Source: Synergistetes bacterium ADurb.Bin155
GTDB lineage: Bacteria; Synergistota; Synergistia; Synergistales; Thermovirgaceae
Direction: 5' to 3'
DNA: 64,000 nt
Assembly: GCA_002070395.1 (NCBI GenBank)
Contig: MWDE01000003.1
Span: 1-64,000, forward strand
Shown here in pieces: positions 11,886 through 57,206 of this stretch. The stretch's first letter is position 1. Each line of letters starts with the position of its first letter. A program made the translations under genes and the position numbers. The notes below the pieces were generated by a model. It did not search any database. It was given only the letters and a program-made list of their open reading frames with translations, and was not told the DNA's origin.

Positions 11886-11997
11886 CTCTTATCCAGAGCG
11901 GCTGAGGGACTGGCCCGATGAAGCCCGGCAACCTGCAGTTTTACGCAAGGTGCCAATACCAGAAAACCCTAAAAAAGGGTTGGGATGATAAGGGGAG
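11886..11997 (+). promoter_or_regulatory. SAM-I (S-box) riboswitch aptamer
   Basis: The sequence carries the S-box core: CTTATCCAGAG, then GACTGGCCCGATGAAGCCC, GGCAACC, AAGGTGCCAAT and the closing GATAAG, which pairs with CTTATC as stem P1. P4 is formed by AACCCT/AGGGTT. S-box RNAs bind S-adenosylmethionine and normally switch methionine or SAM genes off. The P1 3' strand AAGGGGAG (about 11990-11997) can alternatively pair with CTCCCTT of the terminator at about 12049-12055, giving mutually exclusive antiterminator and terminator folds. High SAM should therefore stop transcription. Confidence 0.95.
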
Positions 11998-37207: not shown

Positions 37208-37843
37208 CTAGAGCCCTTCCTGGACGACCCTCTCCCAGGCGCTTCCGAGGTGGCAGGCCTCGCCAAGGACGAGGACCTCCAGCCCCCGGGGCGTCTCTTC
37301 GAGGAGGGTGATGCTGCCGTTCCCGAGGCGGAACCTCCAGAAGCTGCCCAAGGGCGCGTCAAAGACCCGGCAGAGGAGGACCTTGAGGACCGCGTCGTGG
37401 GAGAAGAGGGCCAGGGTGTCTCCCGGGCCCGCCAGGATCTCCCTGAAGGCCCCCCAGGCCCGACGGGAGACCTCATGGAGGTTCTCCCCCCCCGGCATGG
37501 TCACCTCCTCCGGCCTGGAGCGCCAGAGAGTGAGCATCCCCGGCCACAGGCTTTCCACTTCCCCGGCGGTGTGCCCCTCCCAGAGACCATGGTCTATCTC
37601 GATCAAGCCTGGATGGGTCTCAAGACCTAACCCAAGGAGGGAGGCCGTGGCCTCCGCCGTCCCGGCGGCGCGGGAAAGGGGGCTCGACACCACCCTGTCC
37701 ACGGAAGAGCGCAGGAGCGCCCCAGCGGCGGAGCGGGCCTGCCTCCGGCCCCAGTTGTTCAAGGGGGTGTCCCTCCTGCCCTGGAAGCGCCCTTCCCGGT
37801 TCCAGTCCGTCTCGCCGTGCCTTACCAGGAAGATCCGCCTCAT
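37208..37843 (-). CDS. Histidine-phosphatase, probable phosphoserine phosphatase
   Basis: 211 residues of the phosphoglycerate-mutase-like superfamily. The catalytic histidine is in LVRHGETDWN at residues 6-15, followed by GRRDTPLNNWG; the acid is in IEIDHGLWEG and the second histidine in LFSHDAVLKVLLC. Some dPGM-like proteins are genuine phosphoserine phosphatases (PspA of Hydrogenobacter). Here the gene directly follows serA with no intergenic base and is the last gene of a serine-leader-controlled operon, so phosphoserine phosphatase is the best-supported reading. CobC- or GpmB-like activity is the alternative. Confidence 0.82.
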   Translation of the reverse strand: MRRIFLVRHGETDWNREGRFQGRRDTPLNNWGRRQARSAAGALLRSSVDRVVSSPLSRAAGTAEATASLLGLGLETHPGLIEIDHGLWEGHTAGEVESLWPGMLTLWRSRPEEVTMPGGENLHEVSRRAWGAFREILAGPGDTLALFSHDAVLKVLLCRVFDAPLGSFWRFRLGNGSITLLEETPRGLEVLVLGEACHLGSAWERVVQEGL

Positions 37844-39490
37844 CTAGAGATCCTCCGTGAAGCGGACTTTCACCGCCCAGAGCAGGTCCACATCCTTTTT
37901 CAGTTCCTCCAGGACGGGCATGGGAACGTCGTCGTCGATCTGCAGCGCCCCCACGGCCAGCCCGCTCCCGTTCCTGCGCCCCAGGGCGAAGTTGGCGATG
38001 TTCGTCCCGGCCCTCCCCAGAAGGGTCCCCACCTTCCCGATCACGCCGGGGCGGTCGTGGTTGCTGAAGAGGAGCACCGTTCCCTCGGGGATGAACTCTA
38101 TCCAGTAGCCTCCTATATTGACCACCCTCTGGCGCCCCTCTTCGGTGATCGTCCCCGACACGGAGATGCCCTCCCGGGAACCGGGCGAGAAGAGTTCCAG
38201 TTCGACCTGGTTGCGCCAGGTCCCGGGGCCTGTACGGCTCTCCTCGATCCTGATGCCCTTGTCCTCTGCCAGCATCGGTGCCGACATGTAGTTCACCTCG
38301 GGGCCGTGGGAGTACTCCAGGTAGCCCTTGAGCCCCGCTACGGTGAAGGGGGAGAAATGGTAAGGGATCTCGAAGCATACCGGCTCTTCGGCGGGCGAAA
38401 ATAGAGGGCCCCGCAGGCTGACCTTCAGTTGTGTCGCCGGCTCCCGCGATAGGTGCGCCGCCAGGTAGCCGAGCTTGCGGGCCAGCGAGAGGAAGGCCCT
38501 GGTGCCCTCCGGGAGGGACTGCTCCACGAAGGGGAGGTTGACGGCATTCTCGCAGGGCTTTCCCTTGAGGGAGGCCAGGAGGTTCGAGCAGGCTATGACG
38601 GCCACCGCTGACTGGGCCTCCTCGGTGTTGGCCCCGATGTGGGGCGTCAGGATCACCTTCTCACGGATATCATCGGCAAGCAGGGGGTTGTCGGGCCGCG
38701 GTGGTTCGCCGTCGTAGACGTCGATGGCGGCCCCGGCCAGGTGCCCTGAGCGCAGGGCCTCCGCGCAGGCAGCCTCATCCACGAGCCCGCCCCTGGCGCA
38801 GTTGACCAGGTAGGCCCCCGGCCTGCAGGCTTTTATAGCCTCCCCGTCGATGATACCCCGTGTCTCGGCCGTCAGGGGGACATGCAGGGTGACCACGTCG
38901 GCCAGGGAAAGGGCGCCCTTGAGGTCTTCCATCAGGCGGACGCCGGCCCTGTCGGCCTTGGCCTGGGAGACGTAGGGGTCGTAGGCGGAAACCTCCATGC
39001 CGAAAGCCCTGCACCGGGCCGCCACTTGGGTCCCTATCCTGCCCAGCCCGACGACGAGGAGCCTTTTGCCCGAGAGCTGCCTGCCCAGGAAGCGGCTCCT
39101 TTTCCACTCGCCCGAGGCCAGCGATTGAAAGGCCTGGGGTACCTTCCTTACCATGGAGAGCATCATGGCCATGGTATGCTCCGTCGCCGCCAGGGTGTTC
39201 CCCGTGGGTGCATTTATAACCACGACGCCTTTACGGCTCGCTTCGGCTAGGTCTATGTTGTCCAGTCCCACGCCGGCCCGCGCCGCCGCCCGCAACCTTT
39301 TCGCGGCGTCCAGTACTTCAGGGTCGAGGGGGGTCCCGCTCCGGGTTATCATTCCGTCCACGTCCCTCACTTCCGCCAGGAGTTCCTCCCGGGAAAGGCC
39401 CGTTTTGACGAACAACTGCACCTCCGGGTCCTGCCGGAGCACGTCCAGCCCCGCCTCGGAGATCTTTTCCGTTACCAGAACCTTCAGCAT
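37844..39490 (-). CDS. serA: D-3-phosphoglycerate dehydrogenase
   Basis: 548 residues, starting at MLKVLVTEKISEAGLDVLRQ; a longer frame to 39613 overlaps the aminotransferase and is rejected. NAD-binding GLGRIGTQVAARCRAFG is near residue 150, the catalytic Arg in VNCARGGLVDE, the Glu-His pair toward LTPHIGANTEEA. The long C-terminal part contains the allosteric-substrate-binding and ACT domains (PGVIGKVGTLLGRAGTNIANFALGR), so feedback inhibition by serine is expected. It catalyses the first step of serine synthesis. It overlaps the aminotransferase stop by 7 bp. Confidence 0.95.
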   Translation of the reverse strand: MLKVLVTEKISEAGLDVLRQDPEVQLFVKTGLSREELLAEVRDVDGMITRSGTPLDPEVLDAAKRLRAAARAGVGLDNIDLAEASRKGVVVINAPTGNTLAATEHTMAMMLSMVRKVPQAFQSLASGEWKRSRFLGRQLSGKRLLVVGLGRIGTQVAARCRAFGMEVSAYDPYVSQAKADRAGVRLMEDLKGALSLADVVTLHVPLTAETRGIIDGEAIKACRPGAYLVNCARGGLVDEAACAEALRSGHLAGAAIDVYDGEPPRPDNPLLADDIREKVILTPHIGANTEEAQSAVAVIACSNLLASLKGKPCENAVNLPFVEQSLPEGTRAFLSLARKLGYLAAHLSREPATQLKVSLRGPLFSPAEEPVCFEIPYHFSPFTVAGLKGYLEYSHGPEVNYMSAPMLAEDKGIRIEESRTGPGTWRNQVELELFSPGSREGISVSGTITEEGRQRVVNIGGYWIEFIPEGTVLLFSNHDRPGVIGKVGTLLGRAGTNIANFALGRRNGSGLAVGALQIDDDVPMPVLEELKKDVDLLWAVKVRFTEDL

Positions 39491-40635
39491 GACCGATCCC
39501 CTTCCCTTTCCCACGTCTTGAAGGCTTCGTCCAGAAAACCGTCCCCCACGTCGATGCCGCATTCCCTGGCGGCACCGAAGAGTCCGCCGGCCAGCAGGCA
39601 TACCTCCGGCCATCCCCCGGGGTTGTAGTGGGCAATGCGCAGGGTCCCGCCGTGCCTTCCCTGGCCCTCGGCGACGGTGATGCCCATATCCTCCAGGGCC
39701 TTCTTCATGGGCCGCTCTTTCCCCGGGGGCACCTCAAGGGCGGTCATGACGGGCGAGCGGAACTCCTTTTCCCTCACGAAAAGTTCGAAACCCATCGCCT
39801 CACAGGCGGCTTCGAAGGAGCGTGCCTTCCTGCGCGTCCGGCGGGCCCAGGCGTCCCATCCGAAGCCCTCGAGAAGGCGGAGCGACTCGGCCAGTCCGTA
39901 GAAGACGCTCACGGGAGGGGTGAAGGGGTTCTGAGGTCTCCCCTTTTTCAGGAATCTCCTGTGGAGGGCCAGGTCGAAGAAGTAGGAGGGGCAGAACCCC
40001 TTGGCGGCCCTTTCCCAACCCCGTTCCGAGAGGTGGACCAGGGCAAGGCCCGGGGGGGCGAGAAGTCCCTTCTGGGAGCAGGAGGCGAGACCGTCGATCC
40101 CCCAATGCGACGGGCGGCAGGGCATGGCGCCCAGGGAGCTCACGGCGTCGACCAGCACCAGCGGCCCGTCGGCGGGGATCTCCGAGAGGAGTTCCTCCAG
40201 GGGGTTGACCACGCCCGTAGAGGTCTCGTGGTGGGTGAAAAGGAGGGCATCGGCCCCGGGATGCTTTTCCAGGGCTTCCCTGATGTGCCCCCTTCTGAAA
40301 CCTTCGCCCCGGGGCGCGTCAAGGGCGATCACTTTCGCACCTCTCCTGGAGACGATCTCCCGGAAACGGTCTCCGAAGGTCCCGCAGGAGAAGGAGATCA
40401 CCTCGTCTCCGGGCGCCAGCAGGTTGGCGGCCAGGGCCTCCAGGGCCCCCGTGCCGGAACCCGGCAGGAGGACCACAGGTTCCTCCACGTCCAGGAGCCT
40501 TCCGAGGCGTCCCTTCACTTCCTCCAGCAGGTCGGACCATTCCTCGCCCCGGTGGCTGATCATCGGCCCGGCCGCCGCCATCCTGACGGAAAAGGGCACA
40601 TCCACCGGCCCCGGTGTGTACAGGTGTCGCGTCAT
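39484..40635 (-). CDS. Class V aminotransferase, probable phosphoserine aminotransferase
   Basis: 383 residues, starting MTRHLYTPGPVDVPFSVRMA after GAGGAGGAG. The sequence is of the alanine-glyoxylate/serine-pyruvate type: GSGTGALEALAANLLAPGDEV at the cofactor phosphate site, VDAVSSLGAMPC with the PLP-ring Asp, and SQKGLLAPPGLALV with the Schiff-base lysine. Enzymes of this type replace SerC in several anaerobes and archaea. With serA and the phosphatase downstream, the expected reaction is phosphohydroxypyruvate plus glutamate to phosphoserine. Confidence 0.88.
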   Translation of the reverse strand: MTRHLYTPGPVDVPFSVRMAAAGPMISHRGEEWSDLLEEVKGRLGRLLDVEEPVVLLPGSGTGALEALAANLLAPGDEVISFSCGTFGDRFREIVSRRGAKVIALDAPRGEGFRRGHIREALEKHPGADALLFTHHETSTGVVNPLEELLSEIPADGPLVLVDAVSSLGAMPCRPSHWGIDGLASCSQKGLLAPPGLALVHLSERGWERAAKGFCPSYFFDLALHRRFLKKGRPQNPFTPPVSVFYGLAESLRLLEGFGWDAWARRTRRKARSFEAACEAMGFELFVREKEFRSPVMTALEVPPGKERPMKKALEDMGITVAEGQGRHGGTLRIAHYNPGGWPEVCLLAGGLFGAARECGIDVGDGFLDEAFKTWEREGDRSC

Positions 40636-40655
40636 GGGATCTCCTCCTCGTGGAT

Positions 40656-40687
40656 AAAAAAAGGCCGGGAGAGCGCTTCTCCCGGCC
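40656..40687 (-). terminator. Intrinsic terminator (attenuator) before the serine operon
   Basis: GGCCGGGAGA and TCTCCCGGCC form a perfect 10-bp stem with a 5-nt loop, followed on the minus strand by seven T, only 20 bp upstream of the aminotransferase start. It lies inside the operon leader, between the promoter and first gene, and so should stop transcription unless an antiterminator forms. Confidence 0.9.
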
Positions 40688-40735
40688 TGTATTCCCCAAA
40701 AACCCTGTCCTTTTTCCCCCGGTGCGGCCCCGGGT

Positions 40736-40852
40736 CTACAGCGGTCCTCCCCCTGCCGGCAAAGGGAGGCCTCCCCTTCCGGACCACCCGGAAGAGGAGC
40801 TGGAAGAAGAGGAGCCGCTGGCCCTGCCGACAAAAAGGGACATCTGTATCAA
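40736..40852 (-). CDS. Serine-rich leader peptide
   Basis: A 35- to 38-codon frame on the minus strand, ending 49 bp before the terminator hairpin. From ATG 40843 it reads MSLFVGRASG, then eight consecutive serine codons (40790-40813: TCC TCT TCT TCC AGC TCC TCT TCC), then GWSGRGGLPLPAGGGPL. Eleven of 35 residues are Ser. TTG 40852 in the same frame is 8-9 bp from GGGGGGAG and is the more likely start. It precedes three serine-biosynthesis genes, as his, trp or leu leader peptides precede their operons. Starved ribosomes would stall in the Ser run. Confidence 0.8.
   Translation of the reverse strand: MIQMSLFVGRASGSSSSSSSSGWSGRGGLPLPAGGGPL
40771..40799 (-). promoter_or_regulatory. 12-bp leader hairpin overlapping the Ser codons
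   Basis: On the minus strand CTCCTCTTCCGG and CCGGAAGGGGAG pair over 12 bp (one G-U) with a 5-nt loop. The 5' arm consists of the last four serine codons plus part of the next, so a ribosome stalled there would prevent the stem. This is the expected geometry of a pause/protector hairpin. Confidence 0.7.
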
Positions 40853-40886
40853 GGGAAACCACTCCCCCCGTGGAAACAATGAACGA

Positions 40887-40915
40887 TTTATACCACGAGG
40901 GCGCTCAAAGGTAAA
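40887..40915 (-). promoter_or_regulatory. Promoter of the serine operon
   Basis: On the minus strand TTTACC (40915-40910) and TATAAA (40892-40887) are separated by exactly 17 bp. The start point would be near 40880, giving a leader of about 245 nt that contains the leader peptide and both hairpins. Confidence 0.65.
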
Positions 40916-55650: not shown

Positions 55651-57033
55651 CTATTTTCCGTCCTTCACCGGTTTCTTCACGACCGGTGGAAGCGGTTTTT
55701 TCTGTCCCGGGGCGGGCCCGGGGTTCTTCGTCAGTACAGGCGGCGCCGGCTTGTTCGGTATCTTCGGCGGTGCCGGTTTTTCCTGGAACTTCGGCGGCGC
55801 CGGTTTGTTCGGTACCTTTGGCGGTGCTGGTTTTTCCTGGAACTTCGGCGGTGCCGGTTTTTCCTGGAACTTTGGCGGTGCCGGCCTGTCCTGGAACCTT
55901 GGCGGCGTCGGTTTTTCCTGGAACTTTGGCGGTACCGGTTTTTCCTGGAACTTTGGCGGTACCGGTTTTTCCTGGAACTTTGGCGGTGCCGGTTTTTCCT
56001 GGAACTTTGGCGGTGCCGGTTTTTCCTGGAACTTTGGCGGCGTCGGCCTGTCCTGGAACTTCGGCGGCGCCGGCTTTTCCTGGAACTTGGGCGGTGCCGG
56101 TTTTTCCTGGAACTTGGGTGGCGTCGGCCTTTCGCGGTCCCTCTCCCGGATCAGGGAATCGAAGGTTTTCCGCTGTCCGTCGTCGAGTATCGACCGGAAC
56201 CTGTCCCTCGAGTCGCGGGGCGGTGTCAGGCTTTCCTGGCGCCTTTGGAGGAGGTCCCGCCTGTACCGGTCGATATCGCGGAAGGAATCGCGGTCCCAGT
56301 TCCTCTTCAGGTAATCCTTCTCGAGGTCCCTGTAGCGCCTCTCCCTCTCCCACCGGCGGTTGTAGAGGTCGTCGTAGTAGCGCTCCATGTCTCTTCTCTG
56401 TTTTTCGCTCAGGTGGAGCCTCCGGTCCCAATCCCTCATCGCTTCCCGGTAATAGCGGTAGTGGTAATCTCTGAAGCGGTCGGGCCTGTAGTAGTAGTCG
56501 TCGTACCAGCGATCGAAGTAGATCTTGAAGGTATAGCGCTGGTTCATGTCCAGGATCCTGAAGAACAGGTAGAGAAAATCGTCGATCCTGACCCATCGGC
56601 CCGGCCCGTAACCGTAGTCATAGCCGTAGCCGGGGTCGTAATACCGGTCGGTATCCTGGGACTGGCTGAGCAGGAGGCCGAAGGCGAGGAGGGCCAGGAA
56701 AGTCCGAAGGTTATCGTTCTCCCGTTCGATTACGACCCTGGGGCCGCCGGGCCTTATCATTCCGCCGAGGCCGAAGAGAGCATCCAGTTGTCCGGAATAG
56801 CGCTGGTCTGGCCGGTAACCCCAGTCCCTGCCTCGGAGTTCCTGGAAGGAACCCCTCTGGCTGGGCGTAAGAGCGAGGGCCCTCATCAGTTCCGGGGAAA
56901 AGAGGCTGTCCACCTCCTCCTCGGCCCAGTAAACCACCCCGTCGAGGTCGGGCCCGGCGGCCGAAGCCGCCACGGAGAGGCCCGTGCCGAGGAACAGGCT
57001 TCCCAAAACGAGCAGGGCTGTTATCTTTTTCAT
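55651..57033 (-). CDS. Secreted Arg/Tyr-rich protein with PPKFQ repeats
   Basis: 460 residues, starting MKKITALLVLGSLFLGTGLSV (signal peptide; longer frame to 57117 rejected). Residues 35-110 contain a short alpha-helical segment (LTPSQRGSFQELRG). The middle (about 140-300) is rich in Arg, Asp and Tyr, with many YY, RYR and DR pairs, probably long helices. The C-terminal 135 residues are fifteen 9-residue repeats of type KPAPPKFQE, ending with a basic tail. It resembles no enzyme. The proline repeats may span the wall or envelope; the Arg/Tyr part may bind nucleic acid or polysaccharide. Confidence 0.78.
   Translation of the reverse strand: MKKITALLVLGSLFLGTGLSVAASAAGPDLDGVVYWAEEEVDSLFSPELMRALALTPSQRGSFQELRGRDWGYRPDQRYSGQLDALFGLGGMIRPGGPRVVIERENDNLRTFLALLAFGLLLSQSQDTDRYYDPGYGYDYGYGPGRWVRIDDFLYLFFRILDMNQRYTFKIYFDRWYDDYYYRPDRFRDYHYRYYREAMRDWDRRLHLSEKQRRDMERYYDDLYNRRWERERRYRDLEKDYLKRNWDRDSFRDIDRYRRDLLQRRQESLTPPRDSRDRFRSILDDGQRKTFDSLIRERDRERPTPPKFQEKPAPPKFQEKPAPPKFQDRPTPPKFQEKPAPPKFQEKPAPPKFQEKPVPPKFQEKPVPPKFQEKPTPPRFQDRPAPPKFQEKPAPPKFQEKPAPPKVPNKPAPPKFQEKPAPPKIPNKPAPPVLTKNPGPAPGQKKPLPPVVKKPVKDGK
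55726..56130 (-). repeat. Fifteen in-frame 27-bp tandem repeats
   Basis: Exactly 405 bp, i.e. fifteen uninterrupted 27-bp units coding for [KR]P[ATV]PP[KR]FQ[ED]. Twelve units have the FQ(E/D) end, while three near the C-terminus vary (VPN, IPN, LTK). Unit DNA is very similar (CCGGTTTTTCCTGGAACTTT type on the plus strand), so copy number can change by slippage without breaking the frame. Confidence 0.9.
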
Positions 57034-57206
57034 GGGGCGTACCTCCGTTTCTCGAGAAAGGTATTCCTTTCGTGATCTCATCGCGGGTCCATTACCGATC
57101 CTCATTCTAGGGCCCATCTCATTAAGGTGCCCTTTGAATATGTAAAGAATTGTATAGACCGCGAATACGAAGGGTACGCCCCAGGGTCCACCCCCCTCCA
57201 GGGGCT

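Follow-up and report, generated by a model that had tools for sequence, protein, structure and literature searches.

Known attenuators and related leaders

Leader-peptide attenuators have been established for many amino acids, and those of the ilv operons respond to Leu, Val and Ile. The attenuators of the trp, his, leu, thr and ilv operons consist of a short ORF with codons for the end product, a pause-type hairpin, an antiterminator and an intrinsic terminator, and the leaders described here appear to be organised likewise. Unlike these systems, they have Ser control codons (together with Cys and Gly) and hosts that belong to Synergistota, and in the clade of the analysed sequence the distal control codons themselves may form the antiterminator strand.

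Other described leaders share single properties with this locus. The cysS uORFC-8-2 motif of Rhodobacterales and the cys leaders of Actinobacteria also carry leader ORFs with Cys codons and a proposed attenuation, but it is by these Cys codons that they have been described, and what they regulate is cysteinyl-tRNA synthetase or cysteine genes rather than the synthesis of serine (PMC8632094, PMC1262725). The serC RNA motif (RF00517) is likewise the leader of a serC-serA operon, but it is alpha-proteobacterial, its proposed action is translational, and no leader peptide has been described for it (PMC1273637). The T-box riboswitch (RF00230), which is present in the genomes studied here, is also a sensor of uncharged tRNA that controls a terminator; it differs in that it binds the tRNA directly and has no translated ORF. 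The SinR UCN-codon serine sensor of B. subtilis likewise reads serine starvation via slow Ser codons; however, it acts on the translation of a coding gene, and its authors contrast SinR sensing with leader-peptide attenuation (PMC3862929).

The sequence-only reading of this DNA was aware of no described leader of this kind for serine, and no report of a serine leader peptide was found in the papers searched. A serine attenuator is not mentioned in the main texts of an actinobacterial survey (PMC1262725) and of a survey of premature terminators (PMC2965389). The main text of a survey that includes Thermovirga lienii (PMC6429828) highlights one riboswitch candidate, and its supplementary table might already list the leader. 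What looks new is the amino acid that is sensed, together with the phylum, and not the mechanism, which is classical.

Leader region and operon

The window, that is, the whole analysed stretch of 64,000 nucleotides from Synergistetes bacterium ADurb.Bin155, contains the following features of the putative attenuator and the operon behind it.

40887..40915, minus strand: sigma-70-type promoter, -35 TTTACC (40915-40910), 17-bp spacer, -10 TATAAA (40892-40887); from the sequence
40736..40852, minus strand: leader peptide ORF, 38 codons from TTG 40852, peptide MIQMSLFVGRASGSSSSSSSSGWSGRGGLPLPAGGGPL up to the stop codon, or 35 codons from ATG 40843
40790..40813, minus strand: eight consecutive Ser control codons, TCC TCT TCT TCC AGC TCC TCT TCC; from the sequence, shuffles and a pattern search
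40771..40799, minus strand: hairpin A, pause-type, CTCCTCTTCCGG-GTGGT-CCGGAAGGGGAG; from the sequence and MFE fold, conserved in the window clade
40746..40769, minus strand: hairpin B, 10 bp, CCTCCCTTTG-CCGG-CAGGGGGAGG, containing the candidate antiterminator strand TTTGCCGGC; from the fold
40662..40688, minus strand: intrinsic terminator hairpin, AGGCCGGGAGA-AGCGC-TCTCCCGGCCT, 11 bp; stem kept, sequence changed across genera
40656..40662, minus strand: terminator T run, seven T; from the sequence
39484..40635, minus strand: class-V aminotransferase (PF00266), first structural gene, 383 aa; assigned at family level
37844..39490, minus strand: serA, D-3-phosphoglycerate dehydrogenase, 548 aa; TIGR01327 above cut-off
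37208..37843, minus strand: histidine-phosphatase-superfamily protein, PspA/CobC-like, candidate phosphoserine phosphatase; assigned at family level only

The promoter proposed by the sequence-only reading (TTTACC-17-TATAAA) is present on the minus strand with its coordinates right, and transcription is expected to start near 40880. In 50 of 54 homologous leaders, the Ser codons are preceded by a promoter-like pair with a score of at least 9/12. The claimed ORF of 35-38 codons with eight consecutive Ser codons at 40790-40813 was also confirmed in the sequence; it ends at the stop codon TAG (40738-40736, minus strand) and has additional Ser codons at 40819-40817 and 40783-40781 on the same strand. 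As the start codon aligns with the TTG/GTG starts of relatives, the 38-codon reading from TTG 40852 is favoured. With this start codon, the purine-rich GGGGGGAG upstream of it, the promoter on the 5' side and the operon on the 3' side, the ORF is predicted to be translatable.

The window leader contains 10 Ser in 15 codons, whereas its dinucleotide shuffles average 3.3 (p = 0.005, which is the floor for 200 shuffles). When the upstream regions of 49 genes in the window were compared, none scored higher for Ser and the runner-up reached 7, and the matching TCN pattern occurs five times in the 1.9-Mb genome. The Ser run of the window leader exceeds chance.

The leader is highly structured (fold z = -2.84), and both strong hairpins, A and B, are located inside the leader ORF. 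Hairpin A corresponds to the 12-bp hairpin with a 5' arm made of Ser codons that had been noticed earlier: it has 12 bp including one G-U, formed between the distal Ser codons CTCCTCTTCCGG and CCGGAAGGGGAG. The purine-rich sequence antisense to the Ser run, which had been regarded as a possible product of chance, is partly hairpin A and probably not accidental. Hairpin B is an additional element that the first list did not include. As for the terminator, described at first as a 10-bp stem with seven T 20 bp before the first gene, the T run and the 20-bp distance to the aminotransferase ATG (40635) hold, while the stem measures 11 bp. The intrinsic terminator thus lies between the leader ORF and the first gene.

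The serA gene and the gene for the histidine-phosphatase-superfamily protein follow the aminotransferase gene without gaps. In the earlier designation of a complete serine operon, the assignment of serA is firm, whereas those of the other two genes are at family level only: the PspA match of the phosphatase reaches 131 bits against a cut-off of 350, and the aminotransferase is closest to the aspartate-glyoxylate and phosphonate aminotransferase families but stays below every curated NCBIfam cut-off. The enzyme adjoining serA is no canonical SerC, and its top NCBIfam matches, all of them sub-cut-off, are of the BhcA and PhnW types. It may be a different phosphoserine aminotransferase, a role that, because of the sub-cut-off matches, is suggested only through its adjacency to serA.

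Conservation of the leader in Synergistota

A search of 188 genomes of the phylum Synergistota recovered aminotransferase homologues in 71, and 68 loci had assessable upstream sequence. Three of these, from the distant family f11, have no leader, leaving 65 loci of the order. A Ser-rich short ORF on the sense strand, followed by a terminator, precedes the aminotransferase gene in 59 of the 65 loci, with genome G024 as a doubtful sixtieth, and 34 loci are individually significant (p <= 0.01 for Ser-richness against shuffles). The mean maximum of Ser per 15 codons is 6.6 on the sense strand, 3.2 on the antisense strand and 3.5 in the shuffles. The next gene after the aminotransferase is serA in 64 of 67 loci, and the other three are at contig ends. 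Together with the serA match above the curated cut-off, this indicates that the genes behind the leader make the amino acid of its control codons, and these codons for the pathway end product are conserved in relatives.

Upstream regions of serA were examined in 15 genomes that have this gene but no strong match to the aminotransferase. In 11 of them (families f3, f5, f8 and f10), the leader and terminator are found directly before serA, as exemplified by the leader peptide MNSVCLFWNLGTGSSSSSSSGWSGRAGLPVPAGKRPQPETE. Since the leader is found before serA where the aminotransferase is missing, it is tied to serine synthesis and not to one gene.

Comparison of related genomes had been proposed as the test of the Ser run and of the terminator, and both passed it: the Ser run is found in a short ORF at the same place in most families of the order, and the terminator is conserved while its sequence changes. 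The flanks, the peptide and the terminator sequence vary among relatives, and the Ser codons, the frame and the terminator stem remain constant. Terminator stems with changed sequence across genera include GGCCGGGAGA/TCTCCCGGCC, GGCCGGAAGGG/CCCTTCCGGCC, AGACGGGCC/GGCCCGTCT and GGGGAGCCG/CGGCTCCCC.

A few members of the order have no Ser leader (G013, G030, G059, G079, G090, G092, G159, G168 and G185), which counts against the attenuator reading. At locus L091 of G168, the promoter and terminator upstream of the aminotransferase gene are kept and a Ser-rich ORF is absent, so this leader is possibly a decayed attenuator in an AT-rich genome. At loci L031 and L089 of G079, tandem repeats resembling CTCTTATTTAACTTTAGGC occupy the leader position upstream of the aminotransferase gene.

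Antiterminator

No clear antiterminator had been recognised by eye in the window. Cross-lineage comparison reveals one, although it is weak in the window itself. In most lineages, a segment extending from about 15-30 nt past the last Ser codon to near the stop codon complements the 5' arm of the terminator and the bases just before it. In genus g24, for instance, GCCGGTCCCGAAACGTGTA is complementary to a segment ending GCGTTTCAGGGACCGGA; g32 and g33 show GTCTCAAAGCG with CGTTTTGAGAC, and G078 has GGGTCGGTCTCTC opposite GAGAAGAGGCCGACC. In 22 of 25 genera, the antiterminator pairs more strongly with its own terminator than with those of other genera (mean -20.7 vs -17.0 kcal/mol). Matched pairs are also stronger than composition-matched shuffles in 23 of 25 genera (genus-level Wilcoxon p = 4e-7), and permutation of the terminators among genera gave p = 0.0002 in each of ten draws of representatives; as the genera are partly dependent on one another, these p values make the evidence look somewhat stronger than it is. 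When the terminator 5' arm was instead paired with everything from the first Ser codon onwards, there was little signal (mean rank 0.32 vs mismatched pairs), because purine-rich arms pair with any Ser run, whereas the post-Ser segment gave a clear signal.

The location of the antiterminator suits the classical logic, since a ribosome at the stop codon would disturb this strand and a ribosome in the Ser run would leave it free. In folds of the nascent RNA, upstream pairing of the terminator 5' arm was 79% with the ribosome stalled at the first core Ser codon, 70% at the last Ser codon and 31% at the stop codon, a contrast partly due to the longer free RNA in the stalled state. In full-length folds of the stalled RNA, the terminator was still favoured at equilibrium in most leaders; therefore, the decision would have to be kinetic. 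Across genera, the pairing and the terminator are mutually exclusive, and the antiterminator is so placed that the ribosome would decide between them; in the window the pairing is weak.

The post-Ser antiterminator is at its weakest in the clade of the window (z = -1.5 in g1, -0.2 in g3, -0.9 in g27 and +0.5 in g30), and pairing of the post-Ser segment in the window itself has a p value of about 0.10. Pairing of the distal Ser codons and GGCTGG with the terminator arm gave p = 0.01-0.03 in loci L004-L007 and 0.21 in the window. In this clade, the distal Ser codons may act as the 5' strand of the antiterminator with a ribosome held at the beginning of the run. The TTTGCCGGC of hairpin B is a second candidate strand, and TTGCCGGC persists in G026 (L010) although it is read there in a different frame. 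Hairpins A and B compete with both candidate pairings in the window.

Proposed mechanism

Taken together, the comparative evidence makes it very probable that the leader is a ribosome-mediated transcription attenuator, which senses the charging of tRNA-Ser and controls the serine-synthesis operon. It also speaks for the earlier proposal that a low level of charged tRNA-Ser would let the operon be transcribed by leader-peptide attenuation. With ample seryl-tRNA, the ribosome would reach the leader stop codon and, towards the 3' end of the ORF, disturb the antiterminator strand; the terminator would form, and transcription would stop about 20 nt before the aminotransferase gene. With scarce seryl-tRNA, the ribosome is predicted to stall in the Ser run. 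The downstream segment (15-30 nt past the last Ser codon in most lineages) would then pair with the terminator 5' arm, a part that in the window clade may be played by the distal Ser codons TCCTCTTCCGG and/or TTTGCCGGC. With the terminator blocked, RNA polymerase would presumably read into the aminotransferase-serA-phosphatase genes. The co-variation of antiterminator and terminator and the conservation of the parts are observed, and the serine signal, like stalling and readthrough, we infer from them.

About 70 genomes with conserved control codons and diverged flanks form a natural data set on attenuator logic under base change, and the cultured members of the order make the prediction of attenuation directly testable.

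Amino acids probably sensed and alternative explanations

In frame 0, 41% of the codons in the 20-codon cores are for Ser, as against 6-7% in either of the other frames; picking the cores by Ser content biases this comparison in part, and the antisense and shuffle controls given above are free of that bias. By codon content, serine would be the clear signal. UCN codons are favoured over AGY, which make up 12% of Ser codons in the leaders vs 23% in the aminotransferase genes. This preference agrees with the report from B. subtilis that UCN codons respond more sensitively when serine is scarce (PMC3862929).

The enrichment of codons for other amino acids raises the question of what else the leader reads. 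Cys makes up 6.6% of core codons vs 1.7% in the aminotransferase genes (3.9-fold) and occurs in 25 of 29 genera; by frame, it makes up 6.7% in frame 0 vs 1.5% in frame 1 and 0.9% in frame 2. Gly is slightly enriched (14% of core codons vs 9.6%), whereas Ala, Thr, Pro and Tyr, whose codons are also one step away from those for Ser, are depleted in the cores. Cys and Gly are synthesised from Ser, and as the leaders are Cys-rich, the signal is possibly broader than Ser. The leader would then sense several pathway products (Ser and Cys, perhaps Gly), much like the ilv leaders, and starvation for any of them would stall the ribosome and induce the operon. On the other side, Cys codons are absent from the leader of the window and sparse in its clade, while Gly codons lie in GC-rich stems and may serve RNA pairing. 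Sensing of several products is thus a serious possibility, albeit not the favoured one. A more elaborate form of the attenuator is put forward only tentatively and is rather unlikely: present through most of the order, it would read the whole Ser-Cys-Gly branch, the distal Ser codons of some lineages would double as the antiterminator strand, and only a stall early in the run would allow readthrough.

Alternatively, the poly-Ser frame could simply follow from a pyrimidine-rich strand that the hairpins require, with the operon only constitutively attenuated. Hairpin A does contain the distal Ser codons of the window clade in paired form, and their nucleotides are conserved there. However, both TCN and AGY codons are used in the leaders (TCA, TCG, AGC and AGT besides TCC and TCT) with a free third position, the Ser runs of the window clade differ in length by multiples of three, and Ser is retained although the sequences of the terminator and the flanking hairpins differ from family to family. 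On codon-level comparison, the leader Ser run is best read as a coding feature, and the by-product explanation is very improbable.

Least probable of all, and scarcely credible, is a metabolite riboswitch, T-box or protein-binding leader with an incidental Ser-rich ORF, for although T-boxes are present in these genomes, the leader is highly folded and the alpha-proteobacterial serC motif sets a precedent for another serC-serA leader (PMC1273637), Rfam searches at the gathering threshold and at E up to 5 gave nothing credible at the leader, the covariance models of the T-box (RF00230) and serC motif (RF00517) gave no match there, and no conserved aptamer is seen, since outside the clade sequence and structure vary while the Ser codons, frame and terminator persist.

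Other regulatory and sequence features

Several T-box-like leaders were observed beside the leader-peptide attenuator in the Synergistota genomes G000-G019. As both occur in the same genomes, two sensors of tRNA charging coexist in the phylum and can be compared within one lineage. In the window, the only Rfam match at gathering level is a SAM (S-box) riboswitch at 11886-11994 on the plus strand. A protein with many tandem repeats of the FQEKPAPPK type is encoded at 55651-57117 on the minus strand.
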